Source: Psychroserpens algicola (lineage in GTDB: Bacteria > Bacteroidota > Bacteroidia > Flavobacteriales > Flavobacteriaceae). Taken from it: a stretch of 64,000 nt of DNA. The notes beneath the pieces were generated by a model that saw only the letters and a program-made list of their open reading frames with translations, was not told the origin of the DNA and searched no databases. The position numbers and the translations under genes are program-made. Each line of letters begins with the position of its first letter. The first letter of the stretch is position 1. The DNA lies in contig NZ_JACNMJ010000002.1 in the NCBI RefSeq assembly GCF_014526325.1, forward strand, positions 124,001 to 188,000, in the 5' to 3' direction. Shown here in pieces: positions 31,371-43,608 of the stretch.

Positions 31371-31474
31371 GTTTTTTTAGCGAAGGCGAATAGGAGAGGA
31401 GAGAAAATCGAACTTGAAAGATTCACGGTTTCTTATGAGCTTTAGCTATACATGAGGAATATGTGTAAAATGGA
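31371..31474 (+). repeat. dispersed ~100-bp repeat, copy A
   Basis: This starts with a T run, then GGAG, AAATCGAACTTG, AGATTC, TTTCTTATGAGCTTTAGC, TATACATGAGGAATATGTGT. It aligns along its whole length with 34910-35011 in the same orientation, at roughly 70 percent identity by eye. The two copies bracket the AraC-fusion, lipoprotein and FAD-oxidase genes. No reading frame and no known element recognised. Confidence 0.6.
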
Positions 31475-32885: not shown

Positions 32886-33389
32886 ATGAACACAAAATTA
32901 GCAGTAGTATTGATGATGATTTTTTCAATTATAATCATAGGATGTGACAACGAAGATGATAACAACCAAATAAATAATCGTGATATTATCACATATGAAT
33001 TCCCAGAAGAGAAACAAGAAGTCATGGACACTTTCGGAGCTATAGCACAAAGCATTATTGATGGCGATATGGATCAACTTATTTCCTTTCATGCTTATAG
33101 TCCGAAATTTACAGAATTTAAAAATGGAGAGCCAAGAAATGGCGCTGCAGCGAATGAAGCACACGAACGTAACGTTTTTGGAGCTGTAACTGAAGTCGTA
33201 AAGTTTGATGCCAATGATTTGCAAATTGCCGTTTATGGAGACGTGGCTAATTTAACCTTCCATTCCGATTTTCACTTAAGGTTTGGAGACGATTTAGTAA
33301 TTGTTAACGATCAAATCACACTATTATTTGTGAAGACCAGTAACGGCTGGAAAATGGTACACGAACACCATTCACCTTTAACATCATAA
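32886..33389 (+). CDS. NTF2/SnoaL-like lipoprotein
   Basis: 167 aa. A lipoprotein signal ends in the lipobox IIGC (C20), followed by an acidic, asparagine-rich linker. The remaining ~120 residues match the SnoaL/DUF4440 NTF2-like fold: a helix pair (VMDTFGAIAQSIIDGDMDQL), then strands ending TLLFVKTSNGWKMVHEHHSP. NTF2-like folds bind small hydrophobic ligands or act as simple enzymes. It lies 42 bp upstream of an FAD oxidase, likely in one operon under the AraC-fusion regulator. Confidence 0.85.
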   Translation: MNTKLAVVLMMIFSIIIIGCDNEDDNNQINNRDIITYEFPEEKQEVMDTFGAIAQSIIDGDMDQLISFHAYSPKFTEFKNGEPRNGAAANEAHERNVFGAVTEVVKFDANDLQIAVYGDVANLTFHSDFHLRFGDDLVIVNDQITLLFVKTSNGWKMVHEHHSPLTS

Positions 33390-33431
33390 ATCATTAAAAT
33401 TAATCTAAATGATTTATTTTATACATAAAAC

Positions 33432-34820
33432 ATGAAAAAAGCAATTAAAGATATAGATTCTGATACTTTAAAATCCTTTGCATCACAATTAAAAGGGCGT
33501 CTCGTTTTTCCATCAGATGCAACTTATAATGACACACGCAAAGTGTACAATGGCATGATAGATAAACATCCAGGATTATTCGCCATGTGCGAAACTACAG
33601 AAGACGTTATTGCTGCCGTAAATTTTGGAAGAGATAATAATATATTGGTAGCTATACGAGGAGGCGGCCATAATGGTGCTGGTCTGGGGTTATGTGATGA
33701 GGGTTTCGTTATTGATTTATCCGGACTAAAATTTGTGGATGTTGATACAACAAACAATACGGTAAAAGTTGGAGGCGGTAATATTTGGAATGAAGTTGAT
33801 GCGGTCACACACGAGTTTGGCTTAGCAGTACCATCAGGAATGGTATCTTCTACAGGCGTTGGTGGTTTAACCCTTGGAGGAGGTGTTGGCTATTTATCCC
33901 GAAAATATGGACTCACTATAGACAATCTCTTAGAAGCAGAAATGGTTTTAGCAGATGGGAGTTTTGTCACTGTGAATGCTAAAGAACATACAGACCTCTT
34001 TTGGGCAATTAGAGGCGGAGGAGGAAACTTTGGTGTAGTAACATCTTTTAAATTTCAGGCGCATCCTGTAAAGATGATTAAGGGCGGACCAACCTTGTGG
34101 CCCATAGAACGCGTTGAAGAAATTATGGCTTGGTATGACAACTTTTTACAAAATGGACCAGAAGAATTAAGCGGTTTCATAGCCACTATGATCATTCCAG
34201 AATCCCCATTTCCAGCAGAACTACACAACAAACAGTTTTGTGCTATTGTTTGGTGTTACGTTGGTGATCCCAATACATTCGAAGAATTATTCCAACCCGT
34301 TTTAGATTTAAACCCTGTATTTGCTCACGTTGGTGATATGCCATATCCTGCTTTGCAAAGCATGTTTGATGGTCTTTTTCCATCAGGAATGCAATGGTAT
34401 TGGCGAGCAGATTTTTTTGATACTTTAACGCCAGATATTACGGAGCAACACTTAAAATTTGGGTCTAATATACCAACACCATTATCTCAAATGCATTTAT
34501 ATCCAATTAGCGGAGCAGCAAGCAGAGTAGGCGCTAAAGATACGCCTTGGGCATACAGAGGTGCTAAATATGCAGGTGTCATCGTTGGTGTAGATCCCGA
34601 TCCTAAAAATGCAGATAAAATTACCAATTGGTGTAAGGAGTATTGGGAAGCATTACATCCATATTCATCTGGTGGAGCCTATTCTAATTTTATGATGAAC
34701 GAAGGCGAAGATCGTATTAAAGCAAGTTATAAGCATAACTATGAGCGATTATTACAGATTAAAAAGCAGTATGATGCCAATAATTTATTTAGAGTCAACC
34801 AGAATATCAAGCCATCATAA
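33432..34820 (+). CDS. FAD-linked oxidase, berberine-bridge-enzyme type
   Basis: 462 aa, full length. The N-terminal half is a PCMH FAD-binding domain: NILVAIRGGGHNGAGLGLCD carries the histidine (GGGH) that usually holds FAD by an 8-alpha bond, then VGGGNIWNEVD and STGVGGLTLGGGVGYLSRKYG. The cysteine that gives bicovalent FAD in berberine bridge enzymes is absent (SSTGVGG). The C-terminus ends in the BBE motif NNLFRVNQNI. It is cytoplasmic, with no signal peptide. Such enzymes oxidise sugars, alkaloids or phenolics with oxygen; the substrate here is unknown. Confidence 0.9.
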   Translation: MKKAIKDIDSDTLKSFASQLKGRLVFPSDATYNDTRKVYNGMIDKHPGLFAMCETTEDVIAAVNFGRDNNILVAIRGGGHNGAGLGLCDEGFVIDLSGLKFVDVDTTNNTVKVGGGNIWNEVDAVTHEFGLAVPSGMVSSTGVGGLTLGGGVGYLSRKYGLTIDNLLEAEMVLADGSFVTVNAKEHTDLFWAIRGGGGNFGVVTSFKFQAHPVKMIKGGPTLWPIERVEEIMAWYDNFLQNGPEELSGFIATMIIPESPFPAELHNKQFCAIVWCYVGDPNTFEELFQPVLDLNPVFAHVGDMPYPALQSMFDGLFPSGMQWYWRADFFDTLTPDITEQHLKFGSNIPTPLSQMHLYPISGAASRVGAKDTPWAYRGAKYAGVIVGVDPDPKNADKITNWCKEYWEALHPYSSGGAYSNFMMNEGEDRIKASYKHNYERLLQIKKQYDANNLFRVNQNIKPS

Positions 34821-34852
34821 GTCAAAATCATTCCGTTTATAATCGTTATACT

Positions 34853-34882
34853 AAAAAAAGCCATCTCATTGATGGCTTTTTT
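34853..34882 (+). terminator. intrinsic terminator
   Basis: The stem GCCATC / GATGGC with a 6-T tail (and 7 A in front, so it may work both ways) lies 32 bp after the FAD-oxidase stop. It isolates that operon from the defence-like island. Confidence 0.88.
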
Positions 34883-34909
34883 AAATTAAAGCGTGTGTGC
34901 GAGTAAACA

Positions 34910-35011
34910 GTTTTTTACGAACCGTCGGTAGGAGTGTAGTGGAAATCGAACTTGTGAGATTCGCAACTTCTTAAAAGCTATAGGTATATATGAGTGATGT
35001 GTGTGGAATTG
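34910..35011 (+). repeat. dispersed ~100-bp repeat, copy B
   Basis: Second copy of the repeat at 31371-31474: T run, GTAGGAG, GGAAATCGAACTTG, GAGATTC, ACTTCTTAAAAGCTATAGGTA, TATGAGTGATGTGTGTGG. It lies directly upstream of the five-gene island, so it may mark the left junction of an insertion. No coding content is seen between here and 35100. Confidence 0.6.
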
Positions 35012-35099
35012 CAATATGTCTAATGATTAAATTTTATCTCAAATTATGATATATTATTAAATATTAGTACTATTTTTATTTTTCAAATCCCTAAGAATA

Positions 35100-35303
35100 A
35101 TGAATCGCATAAAAGAGGTGCTTGAAGAAAAAGGAATTAAGCAAGTTTGGTTATCTGAAAAGTTGAGTAAAAGCTATAATATGGTTAATTCTTATGTACA
35201 GAATAGAAGACAACCAAGTTTAGAAGATTTGAATAGAATTGCAAATATACTAGATATGGATGTCAAGGATTTAATTGTTTCTAACACAAAAAAGCACTCA
35301 TGA
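35100..35303 (+). CDS. XRE family helix-turn-helix regulator
   Basis: A 67-aa single-domain Cro/CI-type HTH protein: IKQVWLSEKLSKSYNMVNSY forms the scaffold and recognition helices, then LEDLNRIANILDMDVKDLI. It is the size and type of the control proteins that precede restriction-modification genes in Bacteroidota. Its stop overlaps the next start (ATGA at 35300-35303), so the two are translationally coupled. It probably sets expression of the island and may repress its own promoter; no palindromic operator could be singled out upstream. Confidence 0.88.
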   Translation: MNRIKEVLEEKGIKQVWLSEKLSKSYNMVNSYVQNRRQPSLEDLNRIANILDMDVKDLIVSNTKKHS

Positions 35304-37627
35304 AGACTGAAAATACTATAAAAAAAGAACTGGAATCCTTATTAAAAGCTGAAAGTATGGATTATCAACAGTTTTTAGAATTGACTTCTGATTTTATTCA
35401 ATATGATAATGAAAATCTTCGTTTCAGAACTGATGCTGGAACAATTGCTCATTTAGGAAGGGAAAGTATTAAAGATCATACTACAGCAGTTATTGAATTA
35501 GTAAAAAATGGGTATGATGCTGATGCAGAAAAAGTTGATATTGATATTATTATGGATGGTTCCAATAGCTATATTAGAATAGTTGATACTGGAATTGGAA
35601 TGTCTCAAGAAGATGTTATTAATAGATGGTTAAGAATAGGTTTTTCTACTAAAAGGATAGAAAAGAAATCAAAAAAGGAAAGAAGAAAAACAGGTGAAAA
35701 AGGAATTGGAAGACTTTCCGCAGATAGACTAGGCTCTACAATAAGTTTGGTTACTAAATCTAAAGATTCTGATATATTTGGATTAGAAATTAATTGGGAT
35801 GATTTCAACAAACAAGGTATAGACCTTCTACTTATACCATTCAAAAAAATTGATACACCAAAGATTAATTTACCTGAAAAAAGTAATACTGGGACTGAAA
35901 TTATTATTAGAAATTTAAGAAATAATTGGAGTGAATCTGACTTGCGAAGATTATATGAAGAATTATCAATTTTAACATCGCCTTTCAAAGTTATTGAAGA
36001 TTTCTTAATAACAATCAACACTAATATTAAGACGGATTACAAAGGAGAAATAAAACCAAAAGAACATTTAGAACCAGAAGTTGAACTCAATGTTTATTAT
36101 GATGGAATGAGTGAAGAAATATCATATTTCATTAGTGATAAATATGGGTTTGGTGATAAAAAAATAGAAAAACAAATATCTTGGAAATTGCTTTCTCAAA
36201 AGTCTAATATAAAAGGTGAACAAAACTATCTAAATGACTTTAAAAAATTTGATATTAGTGATAAAAAACCTTCATGTGGTCCTGTAATGTTTGATTTAAT
36301 GTTTTATCCTCGTGAATCTGCTCTTGTCAAAGGAACTGGTTTTACATTAAAACAATTAAAAGAGTATTTGGAATTTAATGGAGGCGTAAAAATATATAGA
36401 GACAATATTAGCGTAAAACCATATGGTTTTTCAGGTAAAGATGGTGAAGATTGGTTGAATTTAGGTGATAGACAAGCACAAAATCCTGCAGGTATAGGTA
36501 GACAAGATTGGATGGTAAAAAACAATCAAATGCTTGGTGCAATTTACATTAACAGGGATGAGAATGCAAAATTGGAAGATAGTGCTGCAAGAGAGGGGTT
36601 AGTTCATAATGAAGCATATTTTGACCTTAGAGCTCTAGTGCTTTGTGGTGTGAGATTATTGGAATTACACAGACATAATATCCATAAAAAAATTGATAAG
36701 CCAGGAAATATAACACCAAAAAAGTCTCATAAGAAAATACTAGATGAATATAAAGAGGAATTAGAAAAATTAAAATTAGAATTGTCTGAATTAAGAAAAC
36801 AGGCAGAAGAAAATAATCATATTTATGTTTTAGATGCCTCGAGAAATGTTGATGCAATTCTTGTAAAAACCGAGTCGACAGAAAAAATAATTGAAGAAAT
36901 ACTCAATAAAAATAGAACTTTAGGAGGCCTTGCGACTGTAGGTATTGCTTCTGCTGTTTTTGGTCATGAAACTCAAATGTCAATTTCTCAATTTAAAATG
37001 GCCAATGAAGAAGCAATAGAGTCTTTAAATGAGAATCCTCCAAATATAAATGAAGCAATTGAAGAGCTTATCGAGGCTAGAGAATATTCAAAGCATGTTT
37101 CTGAATGGGGGTCTTTTGCTTTAACAAGAATTAAAAGAGATAAACGAAAGAAAAGACTAATAGATATTAAAGCTCTATTAAGTAAAACAATAAAGGAAAT
37201 GTCAACAGCATTTCATGTTAGAGGTATTAAAATTTCAACTAAAATGGAAGAGGTTACTGCAAAAACATTTCCAATGGATATTGAAACAATAATTATTAAT
37301 TTATTGACTAATTCATACTCTGCTTGCCTTCATAATGATACATTAAGAGAAATAGAAATTAAATTAAGTAGTAAAGTTATCGATGAAACAGATGGTTTCG
37401 AAATTATAGTTTCTGATTCTGGAAATGGCATTCATGAAGATTTTACTGAAATCATTTGGGAGGCTTTATATACAACTAAGACTGATGAAAAAGGGAATGA
37501 AATTGGAACAGGGTTAGGATTAACAATTGTTCAGTCAATTATTGATGATCTTGACGGGCAAAGAGAAGTTGGAAACGATCCAAATTTAAAAGGAGCAAAA
37601 TTCACGATTTGGTTACCAAAAAAATAG
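35300..37627 (+). CDS. double-GHKL protein: MutL/MORC-like ATPase fused to a histidine-kinase core
   Basis: 775 aa with two complete GHKL ATP sites. Site 1: E66-L-V-K-N70-G-Y-D, D96-T-G-I-G-M101 and GEKGIG (132-137), of the Hsp90/MutL/MORC type, followed by an S5-like transducer region (GGVKIYRDNISVKPYG near 361; LEDSAAREGLVHN near 425). A coiled coil (about 475-505) leads to a DHp-like helix with a candidate phospho-acceptor, H556, in SAVFGHETQ. Site 2 is kinase-type: N667-L-L-T-N671, D706-S-G-N-G, G736-T-G-L-G-L. There is no transmembrane segment, so it senses something in the cytoplasm. A receiver gene follows 9 bp later. Likely the sensor/ATPase of a defence system; I know no named system with exactly this layout. 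Confidence 0.82.
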   Translation: MKTENTIKKELESLLKAESMDYQQFLELTSDFIQYDNENLRFRTDAGTIAHLGRESIKDHTTAVIELVKNGYDADAEKVDIDIIMDGSNSYIRIVDTGIGMSQEDVINRWLRIGFSTKRIEKKSKKERRKTGEKGIGRLSADRLGSTISLVTKSKDSDIFGLEINWDDFNKQGIDLLLIPFKKIDTPKINLPEKSNTGTEIIIRNLRNNWSESDLRRLYEELSILTSPFKVIEDFLITINTNIKTDYKGEIKPKEHLEPEVELNVYYDGMSEEISYFISDKYGFGDKKIEKQISWKLLSQKSNIKGEQNYLNDFKKFDISDKKPSCGPVMFDLMFYPRESALVKGTGFTLKQLKEYLEFNGGVKIYRDNISVKPYGFSGKDGEDWLNLGDRQAQNPAGIGRQDWMVKNNQMLGAIYINRDENAKLEDSAAREGLVHNEAYFDLRALVLCGVRLLELHRHNIHKKIDKPGNITPKKSHKKILDEYKEELEKLKLELSELRKQAEENNHIYVLDASRNVDAILVKTESTEKIIEEILNKNRTLGGLATVGIASAVFGHETQMSISQFKMANEEAIESLNENPPNINEAIEELIEAREYSKHVSEWGSFALTRIKRDKRKKRLIDIKALLSKTIKEMSTAFHVRGIKISTKMEEVTAKTFPMDIETIIINLLTNSYSACLHNDTLREIEIKLSSKVIDETDGFEIIVSDSGNGIHEDFTEIIWEALYTTKTDEKGNEIGTGLGLTIVQSIIDDLDGQREVGNDPNLKGAKFTIWLPKK

Positions 37628-37636
37628 AATTTACAT

Positions 37637-38299
37637 ATGGCATTAGTAGCAGTAATTGATGATAGAAAAAGTGTTAGAAAAAGATTATCAAAAAAATTTG
37701 GTAGATATCTAAAACAAGAAGGAATCTCTTGGGATGTACAACATTTCGACCCATTAAATCAAATATTGGATTATCCTAAGTGGATATCTCACAATAAAAT
37801 TGTCATTTTAATTGTTGACGAAAAACTTCGAGAAACGCCTAAAACAGGTGGTGGGTTTCATAGTTATGATGGACATGATCTTGTGAGAGTAATTAGAGAA
37901 ACCAATAAACAATTACCTATATATGTTGTTACTGCTCATGCTGATGATGATATTTTAACACAAATGGAGGGTGAATTCGAAGGCGTTATCCAAAGGGACA
38001 AATTTAATAATGATGATAGCGCCAATCAACAATTTAAAAGAATAGTACGTGCAACTCAAACTTATTTAGAAAATTTCAACAAAGAGTATATAAGATTAGC
38101 TGAATTATCAGAACTAGTAGCTTTAAATAAAGCAACTGACAAGAATAAAGATGAATTAAAAGCTTTACAAACCAAAATGCAGTTACCATTATCAAGTTTT
38201 ATTTCAATTGATAGACAGGAATGGATAGAAGAATTAGATTCCAAAACAAAAGAGCTAGAAGAATTATCAAATAAAATTGAAAATTTTTTAAAGAAATAG
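37637..38299 (+). CDS. single-domain response-regulator receiver with coiled-coil tail
   Basis: 220 aa. The first ~130 residues are a receiver domain with every key residue in place: acidic pair D8-D9 (VIDDRKS), phospho-acceptor D61 (ILIVDEKL), T99 (VVTAHADDD) and K122 (VIQRDKF). A longer loop (KTGGGFHSYDGHD) follows D61. The remaining ~90 residues are charged and helical (ending KELEELSNKIENFLKK), without a DNA-binding output domain. Output is therefore likely by protein contact, perhaps with the HNH nuclease or the methyltransferase. It sits between the kinase-like gene (9 bp) and the HNH gene (1 bp). Confidence 0.85.
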   Translation: MALVAVIDDRKSVRKRLSKKFGRYLKQEGISWDVQHFDPLNQILDYPKWISHNKIVILIVDEKLRETPKTGGGFHSYDGHDLVRVIRETNKQLPIYVVTAHADDDILTQMEGEFEGVIQRDKFNNDDSANQQFKRIVRATQTYLENFNKEYIRLAELSELVALNKATDKNKDELKALQTKMQLPLSSFISIDRQEWIEELDSKTKELEELSNKIENFLKK

Positions 38300-38300
38300 A

Positions 38301-38948
38301 ATGAGATATACAGTTTTTAATAAAAAAGATTCTATAGTACCAGATACCGTTTCTAAATATGGTGACTATAAACCATATCTTAGAAGGGAAGCTAAAGAAA
38401 AATGTGTTTATTGTGCAATTCATGAAAATCCGATTGGAGGAAGTGATCATTTTCATGTAGAACATTATAAACCTAAATCACTAGAAGAATTTGCTGGATT
38501 AGTTAAAGATTATAATAACTTATTTTATGCTTGTGCAATTTGCAATAGATTTAAAAGTAATGATTGGCCTAATGAACCTGTCCCTGATCATTCTGTAATT
38601 TCATATCCTAACCCTAATGAAATAGACTATAATACATTATTTAAACATAATGGAGATGGGACTATTTCCGGAAATTTTATTGCATCAACTTATATTGTAG
38701 AAAAAATATTTTTAAATAGACCACAACTAATAAATGAAAGAAAAGAAAATTTTATTAGGGAAAACTATGTAAGTGAAGCAAATAAACTTATTAATTTAAG
38801 CAAATCACTTTTAACAAAAAAAGGGAGTCAAACTGCAGCAGAGTTACTTTATGAAATTAATGTAAAAATTACTGAAATTAGTCTTTTATTAAATAAGGAT
38901 AAAGAAATAGCAAGGTATGAACCAAGCGAAATAAAAAGAAATAAGTAA
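38301..38948 (+). CDS. HNH endonuclease with two zinc knuckles
   Basis: 215 aa. The HNH core lies at residues 35-82: C35-V-Y-C38, then D49-H-F-H-V-E-H55 with the catalytic histidine region, KPKS, then YNNLFYACAICNRFK with N73 and the second knuckle C78-A-I-C81. This is the arrangement of PtuB/RloB-neighbour and TIGR02646-type defence nucleases. The C-terminal ~110 residues are helical and of unknown role. It is 1 bp after the receiver gene and directly abuts the methyltransferase gene. Likely the DNA-cutting effector of the island. Confidence 0.87.
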   Translation: MRYTVFNKKDSIVPDTVSKYGDYKPYLRREAKEKCVYCAIHENPIGGSDHFHVEHYKPKSLEEFAGLVKDYNNLFYACAICNRFKSNDWPNEPVPDHSVISYPNPNEIDYNTLFKHNGDGTISGNFIASTYIVEKIFLNRPQLINERKENFIRENYVSEANKLINLSKSLLTKKGSQTAAELLYEINVKITEISLLLNKDKEIARYEPSEIKRNK

Positions 38949-40685
38949 TTGTCAAATACTAAAAAAAATACAGGTTCATACTATACTCCAAAAATTCTAT
39001 CAGAATTTTTATCAAATCATATTGTCCAAAAATATCTAAAAGGAAATAAAATATCTGTTTTGGAACCTAGTTGTGGTGATGGTGAATTTGTTTCTTCTTT
39101 TTTTAAGAGTTTAGATTTAAATACAATTGATAATATTTCTATTGACTTATTCGATATAAATGGTGTAGAATTAGCTAAAGCCGATGCCTTAATTCCTTTA
39201 TCAGATAAAATTGATAAGACTATTAATCATCAAGATTATTTAAAACATTATTTAGAGAATGATGATGAATATTCATTAATTATTGGAAACCCACCTTATG
39301 TAAAGAGAAGTAATCTTAAGAAGGTTCAAGTAAAAAGTTGTGATGAAGTTCATAAGAGGTTTAAAGATTCAAGTAACTTGGTAGTATCGAACGGTAAAAT
39401 TAACAACATTTGGATGGCCTTTGTTGAAGCTGCAATAATGAGCTTAAATCAAAATGGTGTACTTTGTTTTGTTATTCCTTCAGAAATATTACAAGTAAAA
39501 TATGCAAAAGAATTGAGAGCATTAATTATTGATAAGTTCGATAGGGTAGAGGTCTTTGCGTTTAATGAATTAATATTTGATGGAATACAACAAGATGTTG
39601 TAGCTTTAATTGGTGTAAAGGGAATTGAGAATATAAATCAACATGGTATTTCTTTCTATCAGGTTGAACAATTAGATGATTTAAAAGAACCAAAATTCAC
39701 AGAAAAAAACAATAATATCCATAGAACAACTCTTGATAAATGGACTAATTATATTTTAACAGATGATGAATTAAACTTTGTGGATTATCTCAAAAATGAG
39801 CATAAGCAAATTAAGTTTTATACAGAAAAAGCGCAAGTAGGTATTGTTTCAGCTGCAAATGATTATTTCATACTTAATGATAAAGAGTTAAAAGAAAATA
39901 AATTATCAAGATTCAGCAGTATTGTAAAACCGATACTTCCAAAAGGAGCATTAGTTCCCAATGTTGCAAAGTTTACTAGTTTTGATTTTCACTATTTAAA
40001 AAATAAAAATGTTAAAGTCAATTTTTTACTTTTTCCTAATCTTCCAAAATCAAAACTTGATGTCAAATTAATTAATTATCTAACCAAAGGGGAGAAGAAG
40101 GAAAAAGAAGGAAAAGGAGAACTACATTTAAGGTATAAAATGACCTTGAGAGATAATTGGTATCATGTTCCAAGCACCTGGCTATCACAAGGTTTGTTTG
40201 TTAAAAGATGTCATAAATATCCTAAAATTTTCGTTAACGAAGCTAATAGTCTTGCTACCGATTCATTTTATAGAATCAATATGAAAGAAAATTATAATAT
40301 CAAAAATTTAGTTTTTTCATTTTATAATTCATTGACATTCGTTTTGGCAGAGTTGGAAGGTCGATTTTATGGAGGTGGAGTTCTTGAACTGACACCAAAT
40401 GAGTTTAAAGAACTATCAATTCCTTACAATAAAAATATAACAGATAAGCAATTTGATATTTTAGATAAAATGCTTCGTGAAGATAGAAATATTGAAGATA
40501 TTTTGTGTTTCACGAATTCAATTATCATACCAAATTTAGACACGATTAAATTAGAAGAAATTAGAATTAAATTAGTTAATCGTAGACTAAAAAAAACTAC
40601 TAAACAACAACGCGATAATATTGAAGTGTATGATTTTGAACAAACACATACTGAAGAAAGAAATCTTAATATTCTCGTTAATTAA
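38949..40685 (+). CDS. N6-adenine DNA methyltransferase (NPPY, type IIG/Eco57I-like)
   Basis: 578 aa. It starts at TTG 38949-38951, immediately after the HNH stop; no ATG could restore the conserved N-terminus TGSYYTPKILSEFL. SAM motif I is LEPSCGDGEF (38-47) and catalytic motif IV is N114-P-P-Y117. The C-terminal ~250 residues look like a target-recognition domain (KIFVNEANSLATDSFYRI, YGGGVLELTPNEFKELSIP). There is no PD-ExK nuclease segment at the N-terminus, so unlike a true type IIG enzyme it would rely on the separate HNH protein for cutting. Either self-protecting methylase or sequence-recognition subunit. Confidence 0.88.
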   Translation: MSNTKKNTGSYYTPKILSEFLSNHIVQKYLKGNKISVLEPSCGDGEFVSSFFKSLDLNTIDNISIDLFDINGVELAKADALIPLSDKIDKTINHQDYLKHYLENDDEYSLIIGNPPYVKRSNLKKVQVKSCDEVHKRFKDSSNLVVSNGKINNIWMAFVEAAIMSLNQNGVLCFVIPSEILQVKYAKELRALIIDKFDRVEVFAFNELIFDGIQQDVVALIGVKGIENINQHGISFYQVEQLDDLKEPKFTEKNNNIHRTTLDKWTNYILTDDELNFVDYLKNEHKQIKFYTEKAQVGIVSAANDYFILNDKELKENKLSRFSSIVKPILPKGALVPNVAKFTSFDFHYLKNKNVKVNFLLFPNLPKSKLDVKLINYLTKGEKKEKEGKGELHLRYKMTLRDNWYHVPSTWLSQGLFVKRCHKYPKIFVNEANSLATDSFYRINMKENYNIKNLVFSFYNSLTFVLAELEGRFYGGGVLELTPNEFKELSIPYNKNITDKQFDILDKMLREDRNIEDILCFTNSIIIPNLDTIKLEEIRIKLVNRRLKKTTKQQRDNIEVYDFEQTHTEERNLNILVN

Positions 40686-40812
40686 CTATTAATATTATAT
40701 AAAATAGAATCTTAGAGAATGAGCCAGCTAGTGCGATGGGATTACAATCTAAATTAAAATTTTAGTACAACGCAATGTAATTGCATCTAAAACCAAAAAT
40801 AAGTTATCTTTC

Positions 40813-40827
40813 TATTTTACATAATAT
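40813..40827 (+). repeat. left arm of 15-bp inverted repeat
   Basis: TATTTTACATAATAT is the exact reverse complement of 41305-41319, 477 bp away. The core TTTTACATAAT recurs in the hairpin at 41205-41263. Confidence 0.7.
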
Positions 40828-40868
40828 TCAAACAATAAGTCCAAATGTCCTAACGAACTCCTCCGTAT

Positions 40869-40912
40869 CTGCGTCGGGTTTGCGTCGGGTATGCGTCGGG
40901 TATGCGTCGGGT
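40869..40912 (+). repeat. 11-bp GC-rich tandem repeat, 4 copies
   Basis: Four copies of (C/T/A)TGCGTCGGGT in a row, then a degenerate AATTCGGGT. It is strikingly GC-rich in an A+T-rich region. It lies between the arms of the 15-bp inverted repeat. Confidence 0.9.
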
Positions 40913-41204
40913 TTAATTCGGGTGAAGCGTGTTTGTAAAACTAGAGCACTAACCAAATGTCCGGTTGACTGTCAAATACGCGTATGTACGAATACATCTA
41001 AAATAATTTAATCTGCCTGAGAATCGCGTATTTCAAAATTTATGGAGCATTATACAATATAAGAGATTTATAAGCATAGTAGTTTATTGGGTTGTAATAT
41101 CCAGGACCTTTGTAAACTATAGATATCACAATTAGCTTGTACATAATTGCTATGTGTGTTACAGCTTATCCAATTTATAAACTTTGGTAGTGTCACAAAT
41201 TACT

Positions 41205-41263
41205 TTTTACATAATTACGAACGCTATAAGTCTGGCAGCCATTATAGCTGCAATTATGTAAAA
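41205..41263 (+). repeat. compound hairpin
   Basis: The outer arms TTTTACATAATT and AATTATGTAAAA (12 bp, perfect) enclose inner arms GCTATAA and TTATAGC (7 bp, perfect), with unequal internal bulges (ACGAAC and TGC) and a 12-nt loop. Imperfect arms with asymmetric bulges are reminiscent of folded single-strand recombination sites. Confidence 0.75.
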
Positions 41264-41279
41264 TACTGTGTATACAGTA
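41264..41279 (+). repeat. small hairpin adjoining the compound hairpin
   Basis: TACTGT / ACAGTA, 6-bp perfect arms and a GTAT loop, starts at the base after the larger hairpin. Confidence 0.65.
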
Positions 41280-41304
41280 ATTTGTTGTAAATGTACTATA
41301 ATTT

Positions 41305-41319
41305 ATATTATGTAAAATA
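41305..41319 (-). repeat. right arm of 15-bp inverted repeat
   Basis: This matches 40813-40827 in reverse complement. It ends 72 bp before the stop of the DUF6090 gene. Confidence 0.7.
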
Positions 41320-41390
41320 AAAATAATTAAAGTCTTCCCTGTTGTTGGTATGTGTAAGGATTAAATCAAAACGATATAAAACTTAAATGT

Positions 41391-42122
41391 CTAAGTATGC
41401 TCGTTTTTAATCTTGGCTTCTAATTGTGTTTTGGCACGTTTCAGATCATAATAAAAGCCGTCAATGATACTACCATACCCATTAATGTATAAAAATCGTA
41501 ACGATGCTATTCGGGATTTGTGCGATTCGTCATGCAATAAATATTTTACGCATTCGGTCTTACAACTAAAATCGGTAATCAATTCGGTATACCAAGGTTG
41601 TGTCGATTCTATGATTTCCAAATTGGTCGTAAGCTTTTTATAAATAATCGATTCGATATCATCAATATTTTTAAAATACGCTTTATATAAACTGCTTAAA
41701 TCTATAAGCCCTTCTGAAATTTCCGAATTATCCAATTCGGCATTATCAATCCAGTTCACGCTATGCTTGTCTAACGCCAGTTCTTTGACTTCAAATAATA
41801 TGGTAGATAACAATCCACCATCATCTACCTTAGATTGGTCATACTTACGTTTCAGTGTTTTTAAATACACCTGATTGAGCGTGTCTAATTCCTGCTTAAA
41901 CTGCTCCAAATCATGAATATCACGATCCAGCTGAACTAAGATCTTTTGCTGTAAATCATGATTATGACGTGCAATTTGCTTGTCCTTATTCCAGTTATTG
42001 ATGTATAAAGCGATAAGAATTCCAAAGACAACCAGGATAATTTCACCAACGGCATACAGCAGGTAATTTCGAAGGCGCTTGGCTTCTACCGACTTAAAAC
42101 GTGTTTTATTAAATAATTTCAT
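41391..42122 (-). CDS. DUF6090 family membrane protein
   Basis: About 243 aa from the ATG at 42122, the usual DUF6090 start (MKLFNKTRFK); an ATG five codons upstream is also in frame. The signature is a basic N-terminus, R-N-Y-L-L-Y-A-V-G-E-I-I-L-V-V-F-G-I in one transmembrane helix, then ALYINNWN. The remaining ~190 residues form a helical periplasmic or cytoplasmic domain. These proteins are common, multi-copy and uncharacterised in Flavobacteriia. It converges on the island's non-coding tail. Confidence 0.85.
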   Translation of the reverse strand: MKLFNKTRFKSVEAKRLRNYLLYAVGEIILVVFGILIALYINNWNKDKQIARHNHDLQQKILVQLDRDIHDLEQFKQELDTLNQVYLKTLKRKYDQSKVDDGGLLSTILFEVKELALDKHSVNWIDNAELDNSEISEGLIDLSSLYKAYFKNIDDIESIIYKKLTTNLEIIESTQPWYTELITDFSCKTECVKYLLHDESHKSRIASLRFLYINGYGSIIDGFYYDLKRAKTQLEAKIKNEHT

Positions 42123-42333
42123 GAGATTAAAATACAAAAAAAGTCCTTCACTTATTTCAAAGACGTTCTATTTCGAGTTCCATCCTAATGATGAGCTGTA
42201 GTTCATCTGTTTATTTGGCCCTTTTAACCACGCTACCGAATAAAATGAACCACATAACCAACAAGTTTGAAACTACAGCCTTCTGAAACTATCTTAGTAT
42301 AAGATGACCCTCAATCTATTAAACCTTACGATT

Positions 42334-42597
42334 ATGGAAACGAAATTTTCTTTATTCAATCAGATTAATAGTTTATGTTACTGGTTGTTAGCATGTAGTG
42401 ACTACCGAACTTCAGTGTTTTTAGATGCTGAAACTGATACTTATGGCGTTTGTATTACGCATAACGGATTAGAACTCTATACCAAAACCATTTCAGGATT
42501 TAGCAAGAGAAAAGCAGAATTCTTAGAACAAGAATTAGACCGTATGGTCGCTGGCTTGCTACATTTAAAACAAAATGTACAGCAGAAATCGGCTTAA
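42334..42597 (+). CDS. small conserved-type protein of unknown function
   Basis: 87 aa from the ATG at 42334; a start ten codons upstream (42304) is possible but adds a non-conserved-looking leader. Composition is that of a real folded protein (VFLDAETDTYGVCITHNGLE, then a helix KAEFLEQELDRMVAGLLHL). No signal peptide or known motif. It stands alone between DUF6090 and lpxD, 21 bp from the convergent lpxD stop. Confidence 0.5.
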   Translation: METKFSLFNQINSLCYWLLACSDYRTSVFLDAETDTYGVCITHNGLELYTKTISGFSKRKAEFLEQELDRMVAGLLHLKQNVQQKSA

Positions 42598-42618
42598 TGA
42601 CCTAAAGACGTTTACGTA

Positions 42619-43608
42619 TTAGCGTGCCAATTTCCGTAGCGCAACCCATTGTTTCAGCATCTCACGTGAGTCTGTTGCAGGATATCCCAGTACTGTTTTT
42701 CCTGCAGGTACATCGTTCATCACACCTGATCCTGCTCCAATTGTCGCTCCTGAATGAATCGTGGTATGGTCTTTTATTGAAGCACTGCCTCCTATAACAA
42801 CACCATCACCTAAGGTCACCGAACCTGCCAAGCCGCTACTACCTGCCATAATGCACGAGCGTCCTAATACACAGTTATGGGCAATCTGAACCAGATTATC
42901 AATCTTACAGCCGTCGCCTATAATGGTAGAACTAAATTTCGCACGATCGACACAGGTATTCGCTCCGATTTCGACACCGTTACCGATAACGACATTACCG
43001 ATATGCGGAATTTTAACGAGTCCTCTCCCATCATCACTCGGACGATATCCAAAGCCATCTGCGCCAATACTCACATTGGTATGAAAAATACAATAGCTGC
43101 CTATCACCGAACGCTCTCTAATTACTGTACCAGACCAGACTGTTGTATGATCTCCAATAGTAGTGTCATCAAGTATTGTAACATTAGGATACAGTACTAC
43201 GCCATTACCAATAACAACATCTTTTCCGATATAACATCCCGCTCCAACTTTAGTCCCTTCGCCTAGTTTTGCTGATGCATCTATAACGGCTGTAGGATGA
43301 ATATCCGATTCAAAATGTGGTGACTCTGGAGTAAATGCGTCTAATAACTTTGCCATAGCCAGATCGGCATTTTTGACTTTTATCAGAACTCTGTTTTCGC
43401 CAGGTTCTAAGCTAATAGTATCGTTAACAATGGCTAAAGCGGCATTAGAGTCGTTCCACATAGCCGCATATTTCCGATTTCCTATAAAGGTGGCTTGATG
43501 CTGATTTGCTTTTTGAATGTGCTCCAATCCTGTAATTTCAAGGTTGGCCTGACCTACAATGTCGCCATTAATTATCGCATTAATGTCTTGAACAGTTAGT
43601 GATTTCAT
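42619..43608 (-). CDS. lpxD: UDP-3-O-acylglucosamine N-acyltransferase
   Basis: 329 aa. The N-terminal ~100 residues are the LpxD uridine-binding domain (ITGLEHIQKANQHQATFIGN). A left-handed beta-helix of hexapeptide repeats follows (KLGEGTKVGAGCYIGKDVVI) with the catalytic-histidine segment DNLVQIAHNCVLGRSCIMAG, and a C-terminal helix. It transfers the second acyl chain of lipid A to UDP-3-O-acyl-glucosamine in the cytoplasm. The gene stands alone here, outside the common lpxD-lpxC-fabZ cluster, so it may be a second copy. Confidence 0.93.
   Translation of the reverse strand: MKSLTVQDINAIINGDIVGQANLEITGLEHIQKANQHQATFIGNRKYAAMWNDSNAALAIVNDTISLEPGENRVLIKVKNADLAMAKLLDAFTPESPHFESDIHPTAVIDASAKLGEGTKVGAGCYIGKDVVIGNGVVLYPNVTILDDTTIGDHTTVWSGTVIRERSVIGSYCIFHTNVSIGADGFGYRPSDDGRGLVKIPHIGNVVIGNGVEIGANTCVDRAKFSSTIIGDGCKIDNLVQIAHNCVLGRSCIMAGSSGLAGSVTLGDGVVIGGSASIKDHTTIHSGATIGAGSGVMNDVPAGKTVLGYPATDSREMLKQWVALRKLAR

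Follow-up and report, generated by a model that had tools for sequence, protein, structure and literature searches.

Can a restriction nuclease be placed under the control of a His-Asp phosphorelay that is encoded in its own operon? The question is raised by five adjacent ORFs on the + strand of the Psychroserpens algicola contig NZ_JACNMJ010000002.1 (GCF_014526325.1), which occupy positions 35100–40685 of the window, as we call the whole stretch of 64,000 nt that was analysed. The control of restriction enzymes is usually ascribed to the methylation of their sites, to cofactors or to transcriptional controllers.

Anatomy of the operon

The first gene of the row (35100–35303; this and all the other operon features lie on the + strand) encodes an XRE-type HTH regulator of 67 aa, on which the Pfam families HTH_3 and HTH_26 score over their cut-offs. 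It is overlapped by 4 bp by the ORF of the sensor (35300–37627, 775 aa), in which a MutL/Hsp90-like GHKL ATPase half is fused to a histidine-kinase core. After a gap of 9 bp follows a stand-alone receiver with a C-terminal tail (37637–38299, 220 aa), after 1 bp a PtuB-like HNH nuclease (38301–38948, 215 aa) and, with a gap of 0, an Eco57I-type DNA methyltransferase with the NPPY motif, which starts at TTG (38949–40685, 578 aa). A preliminary description, made from the letters alone, had reported this five-gene row, and we reproduced its coordinates, the overlap and all the gaps. The four long genes have a G+C content of 0.265–0.296 vs the window mean of 0.338.

Upstream of the regulator gene, the segment 35021–35099 is conserved with a related operon, L024, and would be the probable promoter/operator of the controller gene. 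Over 35021–35284 the DNA is 78.5% identical to L024 (blastn), and the region was also aligned with L024 and a further operon, L027. In a motif scan, promoter-like sites showed no excess (41 observed vs 41.7 in shuffled sequence) and terminator-like sites numbered 0 vs 2.0 in the shuffles, and the scan lent no support to operon signals. Rfam gave nothing over threshold within 33000–43000, and no tRNA gene was found in the 64,000 nt.

We also recorded some features of the flanks. A 76-bp stretch upstream of the operon (34929–35004) has a second copy with 76% identity 3.5 kb further upstream (31391–31466). Just downstream of the operon, at 40859–40923, lies an 11-bp tandem repeat with five in-register copies, and no second copy of this region was found elsewhere in the same genome. 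The gene at 42619–43608 encodes an LpxD-like acyltransferase. Its best match in the one congener compared, G045, is just 37% identical, so the flank may itself be accessory. An empty-site comparison with this congener was attempted, and the two operon-flanking genes gave best matches of 32% and 37%.

Recurrence across genomes

Among 199 genomes of the family, 20 contain a relative of the sensor, as do 25 of 395 from the phylum (the samples overlap, and the P. algicola genome is counted in both). We examined 120 loci, namely the window, 39 others and the best 80 of 559 confirmed relatives from a scan of genome contigs. The order sensor, receiver-length gene, HNH gene was seen in 50 of these 120, such triads being defined by a profile from seven operons, the window among them. 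Since one locus (L141) is the same contig as another (L029) and a further one (L135) nearly duplicates L113, about 48 of the 50 are distinct; both are kept in the residue counts given below for the 50 HNH operons. Judging from the source names, these operons occur in Bacteroidota, Pseudomonadota, Planctomycetota, Verrucomicrobiota/Kiritimatiellales and Bacillota, and further in Gastranaerophilales, Desulfobacterales and a TM6 bacterium.

An NPPY/F methyltransferase gene directly adjoins the triad in 46 of the 50, downstream in 32 and upstream in 14. Two of the remaining four (L100 and L101) stop at a contig end, one (L128) has a split sensor, and in L108 none was seen. Linked methyltransferase and nuclease genes, one of the marks of type II restriction-modification, are present in the window and in those 46 triads. 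The XRE gene varies most in its presence: only 9 of the 50 HNH operons are directly preceded by a gene of 67–84 aa that on inspection appears HTH-like, and an XRE profile matched 3 of these 9. The preliminary description had proposed a five-part unit and named recurrence of the genes together as a check. The check was run and holds for four genes, the NPPY methyltransferase beside the triad included; the XRE gene accompanies them sometimes and is hence optional.

Copies were also found on mobile DNA. Sensor matches occur in 21 plasmid records. In a Bacteroides finegoldii plasmid, the four genes lie close to one for an integrase; the sensor is annotated there as a sensor histidine kinase, the next gene product as a hypothetical protein, and the last two as HNH and N-6 DNA methylase, which leaves the receiver unnamed. 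Viral contigs yielded 108 sensor relatives, the best 80 of which were taken further; these contigs were fetched later and lie outside the profile building, and they may overlap genomes of the earlier set. In phage records, the sensor relatives were two weak partial matches. The flanks gave no defence-island signal (76 of 153 listed flanking proteins from 44 operons, PADLOC at 1e-10, no control set), and none of the 25 listed flanking-protein families, out of 122, has more than two members.

The sensor and receiver keep most residues expected of a phosphorelay

In the sensor, Pfam HATPase_c_3 (residues 62–198) and HATPase_c (660–774) both score over cut-off, and HisKA gave no match at E 0.01. 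An AlphaFold2 model built from an alignment of 40 sequences reached a mean pLDDT of 83.1 and a pTM of 0.59. Its best solved-structure matches in Foldseek were Hsp90 chains (∼460–490 columns, TM-score to target 0.32–0.39, E ∼1e-12) and kinase cores such as HK853 (∼245 columns, TM-score ∼0.6, E ∼1e-12). In sequence alignments, Hsp90/MutL covers residues 55–163 and HK853 covers 550–774, hence the N-terminal half is Hsp90/MutL-like and the C-terminal half kinase-like.

Column conservation among the sensor relatives marks His556 (codon 36965–36967) as the predicted phospho-acceptor. It sits in a GHET motif inside the predicted helix 508–577, which is followed by helix 583–610 and then by the kinase-type ATP-binding domain. 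The sensor alignment has 121 rows for 120 genes, one gene being split and the near-duplicate L135 and the duplicate L141 being kept, and it includes the best 80 of the 559 relatives. H556 is kept in all 120 rows that span the position, and N667 and N671 of the kinase core are likewise kept in all spanning rows. These three residues formed no part of the patterns used in the genome-contig search; the N-terminal ATPase motifs did, and their invariance is therefore partly built in. The sensors are 25–28% identical to that of the window in one set of relatives and 25–46% in another, and the proteins are mostly at 25–30%. On the viral contigs, H556 is present in 77 of 78 sensors (from the best 80 of 108 relatives).

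The receiver scores 27.9 bits against Response_reg, just below the Pfam cut-off of 30.2, and it has no recognised output domain, DNA-binding or other, as the preliminary description had said. Conservation of its column in the paired receivers marks Asp61 (codon 37817–37819) as the predicted acceptor. A directly downstream gene (at least 180 aa, within 100 bp) could be paired with 113 of the 121 sensor rows, the other eight having no such neighbour. D61 is present in all 113 of these genes, which include sister types, L135, L141 and loci from the best 80 of 559 relatives; on the viral contigs the count is 71 of 74 receivers (from the best 80 of 108 relatives). The receivers of the 50 HNH operons have D8, D61 and G79 without exception, and the T99 position holds T in 47 of them and S in the other 3. 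Among the 113, the D8 column lacks an acidic residue in three (L039, L092 and L136).

The preliminary description had listed H556, D61, D8, D9, T99 and K122 as the catalytic set, with the phospho-acceptors intact. The acceptors are intact in the relatives as well and the other residues stand, except that K122 is not the conserved lysine: its column is variable (K in 2 of 50), and the conserved basic column corresponds to R120 (K in 39, R in 8, Y in 2 and S in 1 of the 50; K in 94 and R in 13 of the 113). Residues and model agree with what is expected of a two-component pair as regards the His in a helix pair, the ATP site, the acidic pair, the Asp and the Thr/Ser; the Lys position is occupied by R120, and Response_reg stays under its cut-off and HisKA unmatched. 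Mean-field coupling over 110 sensor–receiver pairs, a small set (Neff 87), did not clearly favour the interface at which contacts are expected. Couplings between the kinase helices and receiver helix 1 made up 5% of the top 20 pairs vs 1.9% expected, and 1–2% of the top 50–200.

Nuclease, methyltransferase and controller

The HNH protein scores over the Pfam HNH cut-off (29.4 bits) and reaches up to 72 bits against PtuB models (PADLOC 2.0.0). Its C35, Y37, H55, N73, C78, N82 and K85 are present in 50 of 50 HNH operons, and C38 and C81 in 43. The methyltransferase scores over cut-off with M_Eco57I_C, Eco57I and N6_Mtase, and at 414.8 bits with the PADLOC model MTase_II PDLC03267; judged by its family, it would mark the host DNA. 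The XRE protein may be a C-protein-like controller. It is 79% identical to the XRE proteins of the operons L034 and L027, and in L027 it stands ahead of a different restriction type.

The triad co-diverges and may have been exchanged as a block

We compared distance matrices of the proteins of 47 operons, omitting L128 (its sensor reads as two ORFs), L135 and L141. Sensor, receiver and HNH correlated with each other at r 0.78–0.89, and at 0.82–0.91 in the 31 operons with a downstream methyltransferase. Shared descent inflates all these values, and the methyltransferase of the same operons serves as an internal control: in the 31 operons it correlated with sensor, receiver and HNH at only r 0.23, 0.25 and 0.06 (reached by 8, 1 and 371 of 2000 permutations). 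When the comparison was confined to a single methyltransferase subfamily (23 operons, L141 omitted), the triad gave r 0.94, 0.89 and 0.85, and the methyltransferase 0.38, 0.39 and 0.17 against the same three proteins (0, 0 and 73 of 2000 permutations). We concluded that the methyltransferase is weakly, incompletely decoupled from the triad and evolves largely apart. The preliminary description had counted it as a member of the unit; this is right for adjacency (46 of 50), not for common evolution with the triad (r 0.06–0.39).

Comparison at the DNA level points in the same locus to mosaicism. The window matches L034 in the XRE gene (35100–35293, 77.9%) and in the methyltransferase gene (38957–40375, 73.8%; blastn), while between 35293 and 38957 there are two matches only, of 44 and 48 bp. 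The sensor, receiver and HNH proteins of the two operons are 25–33% identical. Against L024, the matches stop at 35284 and restart at 38961, with nothing between. The window sensor is 47% identical to that of L107 vs 33% to that of L034, and the methyltransferase 68% to that of L034 vs 40% to that of L107. Because the outer genes match L034 and L024 in DNA and the three middle genes hardly do, the pattern points to an exchange of the sensor–receiver–HNH stretch as a block relative to these two operons, with 35294–38956 as the apparently exchanged segment, where the DNA matches break off. No segment of the sensor tracks the target region of the methyltransferase better than the others.

Sister loci carry other effectors

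We sorted 196 sensor loci by what follows the sensor (the viral set being the best 80 of 108; L135, L141 and, by a length filter, L128 were omitted, and other near-identical viral loci kept). A receiver with HNH was found in 65, a fusion of a receiver and a PxCD-motif domain in 46, a longer receiver protein, usually with one of ∼230–270 aa encoded after it, in 30, and a receiver followed by an MBL-fold protein in 8; 42 were of other kinds and 5 lay at contig ends. Within a few genes of the HNH loci, the methyltransferases were NPPY in 60 of 65, of both kinds in 1, C5 alone in 0, and none was seen in 4. For the PxCD loci they were C5 in 27 of 46, NPPY in 2 and both in 1, with none seen in 16. 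Methyltransferase class tracks effector class. In our view, the strongest argument for the effector as the output of the receiver is this variety of effectors behind an unchanged sensor–receiver pair.

The sister types were characterised as follows. The eight MBL-type loci (L144, L166, L171, L177, L079, L205, L207 and L215) have the MBL-fold protein in the place of HNH. All eight proteins contain by eye SHxDxDH, which we take to be the MBL motif, and the three that were scanned match PADLOC models of DRT-associated MBL and of Lamassu LmuA. Two receivers (L040:5373–6293 and L255:8137–8967) have weak C-terminal HEPN matches, below cut-off (PF18731 at 0.0041 and PF01934 at 0.0029, respectively), together with RX4H, presumably the HEPN motif, and they possibly carry a HEPN effector. 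The PxCD domain, C-terminal in L140:11094–12359 and its relatives, has invariant P, C and D in 10 aligned sequences, and these receivers often lie beside C5 methyltransferases. A model of a receiver with this domain (mean pLDDT 63.6) gave no Foldseek match at E 0.001 and no clear fold for the C-terminal domain; its best matches were receivers. The ∼230–270 aa protein that follows the longer receiver in many sister operons (L025:11424–12221 and relatives) has no Pfam match in the L025 copy. At L126:12322–12948, a HhH-GPD protein that matches a PADLOC type II nicking-endonuclease model is encoded directly after a receiver protein weakly matching Response_reg_2.

Proposed mechanism and alternatives

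We consider it somewhat probable that the window contains a mobile restriction-modification operon, the nuclease of which is controlled by a built-in His-Asp phosphorelay. By their make-up, the five genes resemble a DNA-restriction system, which would probably be directed against phage, and the gating of the nuclease by the phosphorelay is likely. The methyltransferase would mark host DNA and the XRE protein would exert control, and sensor, receiver and HNH would form a three-protein restriction side. The N-terminal clamp of the soluble sensor would meet foreign DNA without the mark, or a structure on such DNA. An ATP-driven closure of the dimer would then join the kinase cores, His556 would become phosphorylated, the phosphate would move on to Asp61, and the phosphorylated receiver would license cleavage by HNH. 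In this scheme we infer the phosphotransfer, that it turns HNH on, what triggers it and the anti-phage role.

In its support we counted the near-invariance of the acceptors and of the HNH core, the co-divergence, the methyltransferase linkage, the kept order and the mosaics, as well as the DHp-like helix pair around H556, the Hsp90 and HK853 matches in Foldseek, the MBL and possible HEPN effectors and the plasmid and viral copies. Against it we counted the lack of a clear coupling signal, R120 for the usual lysine, Response_reg under cut-off, the unmatched HisKA, the flanks without defence-island signal, and a site specificity that goes unexplained if methyltransferases swap freely. If they are exchanged, either the methyltransferase would be the recognition subunit of the triad, or the triad would read something besides the methylated site.

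The same genes could be read as ordinary type II-like restriction-modification, in which the GHKL protein and HNH together are the restriction enzyme and the relay does no more than tune timing or level, for example as a delay after entry into a new host. The N-terminal half of the sensor resembles the BbrUII/HgiDII family (97 bits over residues 43–241, cut-off 550) and PADLOC REase_II models, and a direct or indirect control of restriction-modification by such a relay has been speculated upon (PMC8011034). However, the receiver lacks a DNA-binding output. In all 50 HNH operons, which were defined by this order, its gene stands between those of the sensor and the nuclease, and it diverges together with the latter (r 0.78–0.85). 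We consider this reading unlikely. We rate somewhat lower still an abortive infection system, in which the sensor would detect not the lack of methylation but some other phage event, the relay would unleash HNH on all DNA so that the cell dies or stops, and the methyltransferase would protect or restrain. That sister effectors resemble known abortive ones (MBL proteins like DRT/Lamassu models, two receivers with weak HEPN matches, a PtuB-like HNH) and that the methyltransferase is weakly tied to the other three genes would fit. A pure abortive system, though, would not need the adjacent methyltransferase that 46 of 50 HNH operons keep, nor would one expect its class to track that of the effector (NPPY at 61 of 65 HNH loci, C5 alone at none).

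It is also conceivable that phosphate transfer has been lost, the conserved H and D serving a fixed structural or nucleotide-state switch, or that the operon acts chiefly as a selfish addiction module. R120 at the usual lysine, the lack of a coupling signal and the mobile context are in line with this, but H556, D8/D9, D61, T/S99 and the whole ATP site of the kinase are kept jointly in distant relatives, and we hold this reading to be very improbable.

Returning to phosphorelay control of the nuclease, a wider form of this reading, to which we give somewhat less than an even chance, would place the operon in a superfamily, as yet without a name, of modular immune systems that work by phosphorelay and span several phyla. 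A common chassis of sensor-kinase and receiver would read the state of DNA and, by His-Asp phosphotransfer, switch effectors that can replace one another (HNH, MBL-fold, possibly HEPN and two or more without known fold), with methyltransferase class tracking effector class and with the operon as the HNH branch outside the Pfam families of the published branch. If true, phosphorelay control would give restriction an additional, tunable switch and would suggest a role for the MORC-like ATPases beside restriction genes, and the varied effectors on one signalling core would rank the system with other modular immune systems. The idea lends itself to direct tests, given its two single residues, the separability of the three-gene unit and the mosaics that occur naturally.

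Comparison with known systems

The preliminary description had stated that no named system was known for this gene set. As regards names this stood, since no single system among the protein models of PADLOC 2.0.0 and NCBIfam covers the set, and in titles and abstract openings, a scope outside which most subscription papers and preprints fall, sensor, receiver, HNH and methyltransferase were nowhere one system. As regards parts, it is to be qualified: a kinase and a receiver near restriction-modification genes and paraMORC1 near HNH are both in print, as far as the available parts of those papers go (PMC8011034 and PMC2292703).

The HNH nuclease resembles PtuB of Septu (72 bits). Membership in Septu was nevertheless rejected, for no PtuA gene is among the five, and NCBIfam PtuB NF041761 gives 35.4 bits vs a cut-off of 150; a 44.6-bit match of the HNH protein to one PtuA1 model (model positions 49–227) probably runs through an HNH part. 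Two-component logic in phage defence is reportedly present in Detocs, with a receiver-linked effector and with a sensor and effectors different from those described here; the five proteins gave no Detocs match in PADLOC 2.0.0, a library in which the presence of a Detocs model is uncertain. With the BbrUII/HgiDII restriction enzymes (NF050001) the sensor shares the N-terminal ATPase part, far below the family cut-off, the kinase core replacing the remainder, and membership in this family was rejected too.

In VcSduA, a Shedu protein with a GHKL domain, a nuclease that acts in phage defence is likewise under the control of a GHKL ATPase, ATPase and nuclease activities both being reported necessary; as described in the available part of the paper, it differs in being a single protein with a PD-(D/E)xK nuclease and no phosphorelay (PMC12137116). 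HATPase and REC are listed among the domains of predicted, unvalidated defence systems in a figure legend of PMC13092281, the part considered here. The paraMORC families of restriction operons (Iyer et al. 2008, PMC2292703) also combine GHKL and S5-type ATPase parts. By description alone, paraMORC1, whose genes lie near HNH genes, has a C-terminal extension, and the available text mentions no kinase core or receiver.

The closest precedent is that of Bellieny-Rabelo et al. (2021; PMC8011034), in the accessible part of which soluble HATPase_c_3+HEF_HK+HATPase_c proteins stand beside Response_reg_2 proteins near restriction-modification genes. C5 methyltransferases are emphasised there, HNH_2 and N6/N4 methyltransferases are among the neighbours named, and a fixed operon of receiver, HNH and adenine methyltransferase is not described. 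The window shows the HEF_HK architecture (HATPase_c_3 N-terminal, HATPase_c C-terminal, an H-box His, a receiver beside), and its sensor is homologous over the full length to that of L097 (hhalign E 1.9e-46), the positive control (67.9 bits to PF19191, HEF_HK, and 78 bits to PF19192, Response_reg_2); for the receivers of the two, homology was undetected (E 0.16). PF19191 gave no match to the window sensor at E 0.01, to that of L034 at 0.1 or to that of L098 at 0.05, and PF19192 none to the window receiver at E 0.01 nor in a search of the whole P. algicola genome. The MORC-like kinase with a receiver beside restriction genes is thus already in print, and the branch described here lies outside the two Pfam families that represent the published branch, with which it has in common the sensor plan, the solubility, the adjoining receiver and the restriction-modification neighbours.
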